This document shows positions 7,455 to 50,746 of a stretch of 64,000 nucleotides of DNA, one piece after another. Within the stretch, counting starts at the first letter, position 1. Every line of letters starts with the position of its first letter. The stretch spans positions 1 through 64,000 of the forward strand of contig JABARP010000005.1 in the NCBI GenBank assembly GCA_019186825.1, written 5' to 3'. Origin of the DNA: Pyrinomonadaceae bacterium (GTDB lineage: Bacteria; Acidobacteriota; Blastocatellia; Pyrinomonadales; Pyrinomonadaceae). Made by a program: the position numbers and the translations under genes. The notes beneath the pieces are model-generated. The model was not told the origin of the DNA. It saw only the letters and a list, made by a program, of their open reading frames with translations, and made no database searches.

Positions 7455-9932
7455 ATGAAGGAAACGCGAAACATCATCACGACCACGTCGCCGGAACCGG
7501 TGGAATTGCAACGCCCTCCGGACCCCGCGATCCCGACCACGGGACGATATCCAGGTTATAGTGCGACACCTCAGGGCGAAGGCTTTCAGCTGATCGACTA
7601 CTGGCGTGCTGTGCGGAAACGCCTTTGGCTGGTTGTCGGCATCGCCGTCGTGATGACGACGCTCGCAACGATCTATATTGCCCGCAAACCGAATGTCTAT
7701 CGAGCAAAGGCAGTTGTCCAGGTCGATAATGAACAGGTGAATCCGGATCTTGTCACAACAGACCGAGCCCGACCGATCTCGAACGCCGATCCTTCGTATT
7801 TCAACACTCAGCTTCAGCTCCTATGGAGCGAAAGCCTCTTACGCCGCGTCGTAAAAGAACACAATCTGGACGCCAATAAGGAATTCCAGGCGGCGGCAAA
7901 AGCCAGCTCCGGTTCGATGCTGGGCCGGCTCCTTAGATCCGTAGGACTCGCGAGTGGCGACAAACAAAAGCAGGAAGAGTCGGTGCCTATTGACCCGAAC
8001 TCCACCCTCGCCTCTGCAGATGAGATCGCCGAGGCAGTTCGCCTGACGCCGTTCGTCGAAGTTATCCGTCGGAACCTTAGCGTTGATCCGGTTCGCGAAT
8101 CTCGTGCAACGGTCAAGGACACGCGGCTTATCGAGATCTCTTATAGCGATACCGATCCTGACCTTGCGGCCTTTGTCGCGAATGCGATCGCAGAAACGTT
8201 TACGAACCAAAACCAGGAGAAACGCACCGGAACGAGCCGAAAGACCAACGATTTCCTACAGGAAAGGATCGCGAGTCTTCAATCTGACATTCGCAGGGAC
8301 GAAGAAAAGCTCGTTGAAATGACACAGAACGCGGGCATCCTCAAGACCTCGGACGATTCCACTATCGTGATGGATCGTCTCTCAGGTTTGAATAAGGCGA
8401 TGCTCGAGGCTGAGAATGCTCGCAAGAACGCAGAAGCAAATTACTTCGAGATCGCGAAATCGCCCGAGCGGCTTTCTGCGATGGCCGAAGCCGAAATGGC
8501 CCGCTTCATCACCGAGCAGCAGAACAATATCCGACAATTCCAATCCGACACACTAAAGAAGATCTCAGATCTCAGACAAGCAAGGGCTCTGAAATTGCAG
8601 GAATATCAGGAAGGTGCCCCGGAGATCAAGGAGATCGATGCTCAGATCACGAGCTATCAAAACTCGATAGACAACGCCGTCCAGAAATTCCAGAACGATC
8701 TCGACAAATACCGGGATTCCACCAAGAAGACCCTTCTTTATAACTTGCAGACAAAGTATCTGCAGGCAAAGGCCAACGAGGACAAGATCCGAGCTGATTT
8801 TAACAAGCAATTCGGCGAGGCGACCGGGCAGAATCAGTCTGCCGTAAGCCTTGCTTTGCTGAAGCAAACGATCGACACCAACAAGGGATTTTTGGAGAAT
8901 CTTCGCAAGCAGGTGAGCAGCAACGACGTCGCAGCCCAAGGCTCCGACAACAACATCACCGTAACTGAACCGGCAGTACCATCCAACATTCCGGTCTCGC
9001 CGCGAAGACTGACAACGGTGCTCGGTGCACTTTTCCTTTCTACGTTATTTGGGGTCGGCCTTGCACTTTTCCTTGAGTATCTCGACGATACGGTTCGTTC
9101 GACCGAAGAGGTCGAGAGCCTCCTTCAACTGCCTGCACTTGCCGCTATCCCAACTATCGACTCGATGCCAAAGCGGCGCCTTCAGCTTGTTGCCGAGAAC
9201 GGCGAGCCGGCGGATGATAATCTTGGCTCCGAGCTGCTGATTCACGCCGATCCGCGTTCGTCGCTTGCGGAGGCTTATCGCCAGCTTCGTACATCGATTC
9301 TGCTCTCAACCGCGGGCCATGCACCGAAGTCGCTCTTGATCACATCGAGCCTTCCGTCCGAAGGCAAGACGACGACAGCAACGAACACCGCGATCAGCCT
9401 TGCCCAAACGGGCGCGAGCGTCGTGATCATCGATGCGGATATGCGTCGCCCGAGGCTTCATTCCGTCTTTGGAATTAGCAATGCAGATGGCTTGAGCACG
9501 ATCCTCTCGAACGATCTTTCAGAGGCCGAGATCCTGAATATCATCACGCAGGACGAAAGCTCCAAGCTGCACCTGCTTACCTCTGGGCCTGTGCCGCCAA
9601 ATCCGGCCGAGCTTATCGGTTCGGACCAAATGGCAAAGCTGTTGAAGATGCTGCAAGGGCATTTCACTCACGTCGTTGTCGATTCTCCGCCGATCGCGTC
9701 ATTTACTGACGGCGTGCTGATCGCATCGATGGTCGATGGTGTCGTGCTGGTTGTAAATTCCGGCAAGAGCTCGCGCCAGGTTGTGCGGCGATCGCGGCAG
9801 CTACTCCTGGATATTGGGGCGAAGATCATCGGCGTCGTTTTGAACAACGTCAATCTCCGGTCCCAAGACAACTATTATTACTATCAAAGCTACTATACGC
9901 GCGATAACTATCGCTCGGACGACGAAGCTTAG
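7455..9932 (+). CDS. Polysaccharide biosynthesis tyrosine autokinase (Wzz + BY-kinase, Wzc-like)
   Basis: This inner-membrane co-polymerase and bacterial tyrosine kinase controls polymer length and export. The Wzz domain starts near residue 30, with TM1 at about 58-78, a long periplasmic coiled-coil section and TM2 at about 518-543. The cytoplasmic BY-kinase domain has Walker A (SSLPSEGKTTT, ~632), Walker A' (IIDADMRRPR, ~658) and Walker B (VVVDSPP, ~740). The last 20 residues carry seven tyrosines (YYYY, YY, Y), the expected autophosphorylation cluster. I chose ATG 7455, with GGAAA just upstream, rather than the in-frame TTG at 7437. This gives 825 aa. Confidence 0.93.
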   Translation: MKETRNIITTTSPEPVELQRPPDPAIPTTGRYPGYSATPQGEGFQLIDYWRAVRKRLWLVVGIAVVMTTLATIYIARKPNVYRAKAVVQVDNEQVNPDLVTTDRARPISNADPSYFNTQLQLLWSESLLRRVVKEHNLDANKEFQAAAKASSGSMLGRLLRSVGLASGDKQKQEESVPIDPNSTLASADEIAEAVRLTPFVEVIRRNLSVDPVRESRATVKDTRLIEISYSDTDPDLAAFVANAIAETFTNQNQEKRTGTSRKTNDFLQERIASLQSDIRRDEEKLVEMTQNAGILKTSDDSTIVMDRLSGLNKAMLEAENARKNAEANYFEIAKSPERLSAMAEAEMARFITEQQNNIRQFQSDTLKKISDLRQARALKLQEYQEGAPEIKEIDAQITSYQNSIDNAVQKFQNDLDKYRDSTKKTLLYNLQTKYLQAKANEDKIRADFNKQFGEATGQNQSAVSLALLKQTIDTNKGFLENLRKQVSSNDVAAQGSDNNITVTEPAVPSNIPVSPRRLTTVLGALFLSTLFGVGLALFLEYLDDTVRSTEEVESLLQLPALAAIPTIDSMPKRRLQLVAENGEPADDNLGSELLIHADPRSSLAEAYRQLRTSILLSTAGHAPKSLLITSSLPSEGKTTTATNTAISLAQTGASVVIIDADMRRPRLHSVFGISNADGLSTILSNDLSEAEILNIITQDESSKLHLLTSGPVPPNPAELIGSDQMAKLLKMLQGHFTHVVVDSPPIASFTDGVLIASMVDGVVLVVNSGKSSRQVVRRSRQLLLDIGAKIIGVVLNNVNLRSQDNYYYYQSYYTRDNYRSDDEA

Positions 9933-48559: not shown

Positions 48560-49210
48560 ATGAAATTCTTTATTGATACTGCAAATCTGGACGAGATCCG
48601 CGAAGCCAACGAAATGGGCCTCGTCGATGGTGTTACTACAAACCCGAGCCTGATCGCAAAAGAAGGCAATGTTGATTTCAAAGAACACATCGGGAATATA
48701 TGCAAGATCGTCAAGGGCGATGTTTCCGCTGAGGTTACATCTCTTGATCTTGAAGGAATGTTGAAGGAAGGCCGCGAGTACGCGAAGATCGCCGACAACG
48801 TTGTGATCAAATGCCCGATGACCGTCGATGGAATGAAAGCGACCAGGAGGCTTACAGACGAGGGCATCTCCGTAAACGTCACACTTTGCTTTTCTTCCAC
48901 TCAGGCTCTGATCGCGGCAAAGGCAGGTGCAAAGTACATCTCACCTTTCATTGGCCGGCTGGACGATATCAGCCATGACGGAATGGAGCTCATCCACCAG
49001 ATCGTTCAAATCTACGATAACTACGGTTTTGCGACCGAGGTCCTAGCGGCTTCCATCCGCAGCCCGATGCATATCGTGAATGCTGCACTTGCGGGTGCAG
49101 ACGTTGCGACGATCCCGTTCAAGGTGATCACGCAGCTCATCAAACATCCCCTTACTGACAACGGCCTGGAAGCCTTCCTCGCGGACTGGAAAAAGAGCGG
49201 ACGTTCTTAA
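48560..49210 (+). CDS. fsa: Transaldolase-like fructose-6-phosphate aldolase
   Basis: This 216-aa small transaldolase-family protein has [32 protein letters not shown], the Schiff-base lysine in [44 protein letters not shown] and [13 protein letters not shown]. The family includes FSA and true short transaldolases, which the sequence alone does not distinguish. It overlaps the 3' end of the convergent 128-aa gene by 4 bp. Confidence 0.93.
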
Positions 49211-49593
49211 GCAGGTCCAACAACCAACGATCTTAATTCGCTCTGCAGTGAAGCAGCTTCTACGCTGTGCTGCAGAGCGTATTTGTATTTGTCCACAAAA
49301 TAGTCATCTCCGCCCTCCATGGACACGAGTTCGGCAACCTTCGCCTGAGCGGCATCAAGATCTTCTTCCCTGATGCCATCCTTTTGGTCGAACAGCTCGT
49401 CGATCTCGACGATCAGAAGCGAAAAACGTCGCAGCCACGCAAAATCGTCATTCTCCAAAAGGATGTTCAGGAACTGCCCGGCCGTTTGCTGCCCGTGGAT
49501 TCCCTCGTACAATCCCCGCTCAAGGTCAAGCATCGTTTTGTGCAGCTTGAGCAAAAGGTCCCGACATTGTTTTAGTCTTTCTTTCTTTTCCAT
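49207..49593 (-). CDS. Uncharacterised 128-aa helical protein
   Basis: This soluble, charged, mostly helical protein begins [20 protein letters not shown] Gly/Gln stretch [12 protein letters not shown] is in the middle, then [20 protein letters not shown] and an acidic helix [14 protein letters not shown] do not recognise a named domain. It is transcribed divergently from the SlyA/MarR gene, and the phased palindrome array lies between the two starts, so it is a probable target of that regulator. Confidence 0.68.
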
Positions 49594-49648
49594 CTAATTA
49601 ATCTTAGCTGACTTGCATAACAATTCATATCGAGCTAACTTTATTTTA

Positions 49649-49748
49649 TTAGCTGGCTAACCAAATAAGATTAGCACGCTAACGTTCTTTAATTAGCTTG
49701 CTAATCATTTTCAATTAGCGTGCTTCGTACTTCCCGTTAGCCCGCTAA
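49649..49748. promoter_or_regulatory. Array of five TTAGCnnGCTAA palindromes at exact 22-bp spacing (SlyA/MarR-type operators)
   Basis: Sites begin at 49649 (TTAGCTGGCTAA), 49671 (TTAGCACGCTAA), 49693 (TTAGCTTGCTAA), 49715 (TTAGCGTGCTTC, right half decayed) and 49737 (TTAGCCCGCTAA). A half-site GCTAA at 49634-49638 is in the same 22-bp register, and a further TTAGC at 49604 is one base off. The palindrome matches the known SlyA consensus TTAGCAAGCTAA. The last site ends 15 bp before the regulator ATG. Two-turn spacing places all sites on one helix face. Confidence 0.88.
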
Positions 49749-49763
49749 ATTTGAGCCCCAACG

Positions 49764-50228
49764 ATGGCACCAAGACCGGCAGAATTCGTTTTCGAACAAA
49801 CAATAAGCTTCGTTCTGGCGAGGACCTCTACGGCGTTTCGGAATTCCCTCGAGAAAAGCATGGCAACGATCGGCCTCCATGCGGGCCAGGCGTTCGTGCT
49901 GATCGAATTATGGAAGAGGAATGGCCAACGGCAGATCGACATTGCTTCGCAGCTTAATCTCGCCGCCCCGACCGTAAGCAAAATGATCAAAGGCCTCGTC
50001 GAGATCAATTTGGTTCGCGTCCAAAAGGTCGAAGATGATGCAAGGAGCACACGGGCCTTCGTCACCGAGAAAGGCCTTGCCATCCGAGCTGAGGTCGAAA
50101 CGCAATGGCATGAACTTGAGGAGTACACCCTCGCCGACCTCAACGAGACCGAACGCCTCATCCTGTTCGATCTCTTGAGCAAGCTTAGGAATACATATAC
50201 CGGCCGAGACCCCGAAGAAGACGAGTGA
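49764..50228 (+). CDS. MarR/SlyA-family transcriptional regulator
   Basis: This 154-aa winged-helix repressor/activator has helix-turn-helix QRQIDIASQLNLAAPTVSKMIKGLVEINLV (residues ~62-92) and wing DDARSTRAFVTEKG, both standard for MarR. Flanking helices give the dimer interface. The array of SlyA-like palindromes just upstream implies autoregulation and control of the divergent gene. No efflux or enzyme target is adjacent downstream. The universal stress protein gene 66 bp later has its own promoter. The effector ligand is unknown. Confidence 0.92.
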   Translation: MAPRPAEFVFEQTISFVLARTSTAFRNSLEKSMATIGLHAGQAFVLIELWKRNGQRQIDIASQLNLAAPTVSKMIKGLVEINLVRVQKVEDDARSTRAFVTEKGLAIRAEVETQWHELEEYTLADLNETERLILFDLLSKLRNTYTGRDPEEDE

Positions 50229-50293: not shown

Positions 50294-50746
50294 ATGAAGA
50301 TCATCCTTGCGGCCGATGGCACAAAACACGGGGACGCTGCGGCAGAAGCCATTAAGAACTTCGCGCTCTCGGGCACCGATTCGGTTCATATTGTCACAGT
50401 CGTCGATATGGCTGTGCCGCTCGGCATTGACGTTTACAGCGGATACCTTCCCGACACGACCGAGATCGAAAAGGCGGCTCGCGAGCATGCCGATAAGGTT
50501 ATTTCCTCGACGGTCGAAAAGCTAAAGGCCGAGTTTGCGAACGACCCGCCGGCGATTTCTAGTGATGTTCTTTTTGGCTCGCCGGATAGCCGAATAGTCG
50601 AAACGGCCGAGGAACTCAATGCGGATCTGATCGTTCTCGGGTCACACGGCTATAACCGTTGGGAACGCCTGCTGCTCGGTTCAGTCTCCGATTCAGTCGT
50701 GCATCACGCTCATTGTTCGGTATTGATCGTCCGGGATGCGGAATAG
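50294..50746 (+). CDS. Universal stress protein (UspA family)
   Basis: This 150-aa single-domain USP has MKIILAADGT at the N terminus, DLIVLGSHGYNRWERLLLGSVSDSVVHHAHCSVLIVR at the C terminus. The G-x2-G-x9-G-S/T ATP-binding motif (GSHGYNRWERLLLGSVS) is complete, so it probably binds ATP. Downstream DUF402 starts within its last codons. It is likely induced by stress, by analogy with the family. Confidence 0.92.
   Translation: MKIILAADGTKHGDAAAEAIKNFALSGTDSVHIVTVVDMAVPLGIDVYSGYLPDTTEIEKAAREHADKVISSTVEKLKAEFANDPPAISSDVLFGSPDSRIVETAEELNADLIVLGSHGYNRWERLLLGSVSDSVVHHAHCSVLIVRDAE

Follow-up and report, generated by a model that had tools for sequence, protein, structure and literature searches.

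A genus-conserved array of palindromes at 22-bp steps between divergent genes as a probable autoregulatory operator of the adjacent MarR-family gene

Six palindromic sites, set in register at exact 22-bp steps, were found between two divergent genes in a window of 64,000 nucleotides, the whole stretch of DNA analysed from the genome of a Pyrinomonadaceae bacterium. The array is flanked by a minus-strand gene encoding a 128-aa protein (49207-49593) and by a plus-strand gene encoding a MarR-family regulator of 154 aa (49764-50228), its presumed binder, and the palindromes lie 15-137 bp upstream of marR. This 22-bp array is genuine and vastly exceeds chance expectation. We consider it probable that the array is the autoregulatory operator of the adjacent MarR, where side-by-side dimers would repress both marR, with or without the following usp gene, and the divergent 128-aa gene.

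The six sites start at 49627, 49649, 49671, 49693, 49715 and 49737. Sites 2 (TTAGCTGGCTAA, 49649-49660), 3 (TTAGCACGCTAA, 49671-49682) and 4 (TTAGCTTGCTAA, 49693-49704), which form the core of the array, and site 6 (TTAGCCCGCTAA, 49737-49748), which is retained chiefly in the closest relatives, are exact copies of TTAGCNNGCTAA. Five exact sites had originally been predicted at this spacing. The spacing held, but site 5 (TTAGCGTGCTTC, 49715-49726), which is less conserved in the genus, carries two mismatches, so that four exact copies remain. What had been described as an in-register half-site at 49634-49638 is indeed in register, but it turned out to be the right half of a sixth site (site 1; ATATCGAGCTAA, 49627-49638), also with two mismatches, whose left half is ATACC-like genus-wide and overlaps the presumed -35 of the divergent gene. 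Genome-wide (3.2 Mb), the exact TTAGCNNGCTAA occurs four times, and all four copies lie within the 22-bp array. The observed four-unit score was 38 of 40, against a maximum of 28 in dinucleotide-preserving shuffles of the upstream region, none of which (0 of 5000) reached 38. For arrays of the MntR-mneP type, at least three evenly spaced sites, some two helical turns apart, are expected; here there are six at 22 bp, and they are conserved in the genus.

Among 40 other genomes of the genus, 38 carry an ortholog of marR, and neither of the two without one is complete (78% and 89%). Those relatives that have names are MAGs of Acidobacteria, among them a Pyrinomonadaceae bacterium and OLB17. A clear 22-bp array, with at least one two-site match at no more than two mismatches, is present in 36 of these 38 marR-bearing genomes. 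The remaining two loci, L029 and L041, hold degenerate in-register sites, and weak sites were seen in a few orthologs in all (L029, L041, L051, L053 and L061). When best-phase site counts were summed over the 38 same-genus loci, a period of 22 bp gave 172, whereas each of the remaining periods between 18 and 26 bp gave only 38-40. The comparison of orthologous intergenic regions that had been proposed at the outset thus found site number and 22-bp spacing both conserved, with 2 to 6 or more sites among relatives.

Across the genus, the ten half-site positions of sites 2-4 are near-invariant while their two central bases and the spacers vary, and pairwise comparison of six close relatives gave a mean difference of 0.059 for half-sites, 0.617 for centres and 0.373 for spacers. 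Half-sites that stay constant while centres and spacers drift point to protein-binding sites under selection and not to a repeat tract. With MarR identity down to ~47% in the genus, this makes it exceedingly improbable that the array is a tandem repeat tract generated by slippage and devoid of regulatory function. The differing spacers also argue, as had been anticipated, against a recent duplication, but units have sometimes been copied locally, as slippage would have it. In L004 (ctttatttaa) and likewise in L005 (ctttatttca), spacer 1 has the same sequence as spacer 3, hinting that units were duplicated or underwent gene conversion within the array.

The regulator contains a MarR winged-helix domain (PF01047, 44.8 bits against a cut-off of 24.6), and, as judged from the DNA, it has the palindromic operator-like sites near its own gene that are looked for in the MarR family. 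Against the SlyA equivalog model PRK03573 it scored 29.1 bits, far from the cut-off of 120. By these profile scores, the adjacent protein is a MarR-family member and not SlyA: of the MarR/SlyA regulator first assigned to this gene, the family stands and the SlyA identity does not, and 'SlyA-type' fits the motif only. The proposed equivalence of the motif to the SlyA consensus was confirmed, as TTAGCNNGCTAA agrees with TTAGCAAGCTAA (PMC5797941). The AlphaFold model of the protein is too uncertain (pLDDT 52.7).

Within the family, marR orthologs occur in 9 of 29 genera. We scanned 119 family genomes for two-site matches with at most two mismatches and obtained 111 matches in 42 genomes, all of them at the marR locus and none elsewhere. 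Such matches were present in 42 of the 58 genomes with marR and in 0 of the 61 without it (Fisher p = 3e-19). Among 396 genomes across the phylum, no match at one mismatch or fewer was found outside the genus. A phased regulatory array for the divergent genes, the central claim of the original prediction, is therefore strongly supported, and its link to the adjacent marR is exclusive.

Position and co-occurrence are what tie the motif to this protein. The array might instead be bound mainly by another protein, either a paralogous MarR or a nucleoid protein, with the adjacent MarR merely one target, and since TTAGC-N2-GCTAA is read by the distant SlyA (PMC5797941), other MarR proteins could read it too. 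However, the array is found nowhere else in these genomes and is present only in genomes with this marR, and we regard such a binder as very unlikely. Single sites with at most one mismatch were not above the reversed-pattern control in the genome (36 versus 127), and no second array was found elsewhere in it, so the regulator looks local; a genome-wide regulon was rejected on the same two results. In a viral contig of 72.9 kb (IMGVR_UViG_3300032053_000048, L068), five exact copies of TTAGCNNGCTAA lie in an intergenic region (8243-8364), spaced 34, 34, 22 and 20 bp, and no MarR-like ORF was recognised by eye near these repeats.

The window yielded no consensus sigma-70 promoter, a point against the operator reading. 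The TTAGC at 49604 had been taken for an out-of-phase remnant of the array, but on the minus strand of related genomes TATAAT, TAGAAT or TAAGAT occupies this position, so that it resembles a -10 element. It is overlapped here by the presumed -10 of the divergent gene (TAAGAT, minus strand, 49601-49606). A TAnnAT-like element lies 7-12 nt upstream of the 128-aa start codon, 33 of 38 loci having an A at -11 and a T at -7, and the sequence at the same position is TATAAT in L018 and L024. This position would predict a nearly leaderless 128-aa transcript, and the GGTAT-like conserved left half of site 1, ~17 bp further upstream, would correspond to the -35 region. In 28 of 38 loci, 54-55 bp separate the first strong site from the 128-aa start codon, and several of the exceptions are off by about one 22-bp step, whereas anywhere from 22 to 90 bp lie between the last strong site and the approximate start of marR. 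This fixed distance to the one start and variable distance to the other indicate that the array keeps its register relative to the leftward promoter. In several relatives, TTGAT(T/A) is followed after 16-18 bp by a TATnnT element within spacers 1 and 2, suggesting a rightward marR promoter inside the array in some relatives only. An RNA element was considered and rejected, because there was no Rfam match and a centre of 2 nt leaves too little room for an RNA hairpin loop.

Taken together, the confinement of all exact motifs to this array, the exclusive linkage to marR, the selection on half-sites and the period of 22 bp argue for an autoregulatory operator of the adjacent MarR. Also in its favour are the sites that stay with marR where the divergent gene is missing, the ~20-24 bp that a MarR-family dimer covers (PMC2156107, PMC3737563) and the one dimer per 22-bp duplex in crystals of SCO3205; the weak sites of a few orthologs and the other spacings outside the genus count against it. 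One dimer would occupy each TTAGCNNGCTAA palindrome, and at 22-bp steps (~2.1 turns) up to six dimers could sit side by side on roughly one DNA face, so that a filled array would cover the whole intergenic region. The full array would repress the rightward marR(-usp) transcript as well as the leftward 128-aa gene, whose presumed -35 overlaps site 1 and whose -10 flanks that site, and a ligand would release the dimers. We infer that the adjacent MarR binds the sites, that it represses transcription both ways and that neighbouring dimers touch each other, that is, bind cooperatively.

It is also conceivable, though rather unlikely, that MarR binds the six sites independently, the array adding occupancy by number or soaking up regulator and 22 bp being the closest clash-free packing. 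MarR-family dimers cover ~20-24 bp (PMC2156107, PMC3737563), which places 22 bp near the minimum spacing, and the variation in site number between relatives is in line with independent binding. However, none of the 38 genus loci has a period of 21, 23 or 24 bp, a strictness greater than packing needs, and fixed 22-15-22 patterns in other genera likewise speak against it. Four sites with this 22-15-22 spacing were found in members of genera g16, g19, g6 and g23. The spacing is 23-15-23 in g27, 22-46-22 in L056 and, with degenerate sites, 22-15-22-15-22 in L043, and the g17 ortholog has two sites 23 bp apart. A 15-bp step (~1.4 turns) would place such arrays on roughly opposite DNA faces. With other genera at 23 bp or 22/15 bp, strict same-face contact is no general need of the protein. 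The uniform 22-bp array corresponds to one well-supported clade (100/99) of the MarR protein tree.

Beyond the operator function itself, we tentatively suggest, as a possibility that falls somewhat short of an even chance, that MarR behaves like a one-dimensional filament along its own operator and that the 22-bp lattice is a steep switch for two divergent genes. If this filament reading is true, the 23-bp pairs, the 22-15-22 patterns and the uniform 22-bp arrays would be a natural series in which operator geometry and cooperativity evolve with the repressor. The genus-wide phased array and the sister-genus geometries would allow spacing, dimer contact and switch steepness to be linked with a small purified protein.

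The usual picture of a MarR regulator is a single dimer at one or two operators. Searches of the open-access literature returned no MarR array with several strictly phased sites, which is weak evidence of novelty. The nearest mechanistic analogue is the MntR array at the mneP promoter of Bacillus subtilis, where four dimers bind cooperatively on 84 bp (PMC11275975). Like the array here, it is a row of small winged-helix dimer sites about two helical turns apart, beside or over a promoter. Cooperative contacts are documented for MntR, whereas those of the present array are presumed. MntR also differs in being a DtxR-type metalloregulator that activates mneP from weak sites not located before its own gene, in contrast to the MarR protein, strong palindromes and presumed autorepression here.

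SlyA of Salmonella and E. coli (PMC5797941, PMC2156107) resembles the present case in its consensus, which the array motif matches at the DNA level, in having a site upstream of slyA itself, and in that several dimers may bind one promoter region (hlyE). It differs in that at other promoters its sites are degenerate and lack phasing and that it acts on many target genes, against H-NS, whereas the adjacent MarR is no SlyA equivalog and has one locus. The MarR-family protein SCO3205 of Streptomyces (PMC3737563) likewise has operators between divergent genes including its own, with a dimer footprint of ~24 bp, and its crystals contain one dimer per 22-bp duplex with end-stacked DNA. Its two operators, however, are separate and independent and form no phased array.

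The gene order fsa, 128-aa gene (reverse), array, marR, usp and an NtdP-like gene, the last resembling the nucleoside tri-/diphosphate phosphatase NtdP, is kept in most genomes of the genus. The universal stress protein gene usp (plus strand, 50294-50746) usually lies directly 3' of marR and is possibly co-transcribed with it. The 128-aa gene is conserved beside the array in the genus, and searches of its product against Pfam and NCBIfam gave no match; the protein is kept in this genus as well as in several others and is predicted mainly from this conservation of its sequence. The sites still precede marR in L046 and L050, where the 128-aa gene is missing. In two g17 genomes, L063 (1152-1991) and L064 (1173-2039), the gene divergent from the orthologous marR encodes a pirin (PF02678), and homologs of the 128-aa gene lie nearby. 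As these loci without the 128-aa gene or with pirin show, the array sites follow marR and no single neighbour. The array offers a handle on the regulation of the conserved Acidobacteria locus fsa/128-aa gene/marR/usp, and the pirin beside the g17 marR may hint at an oxidative or electrophile signal.
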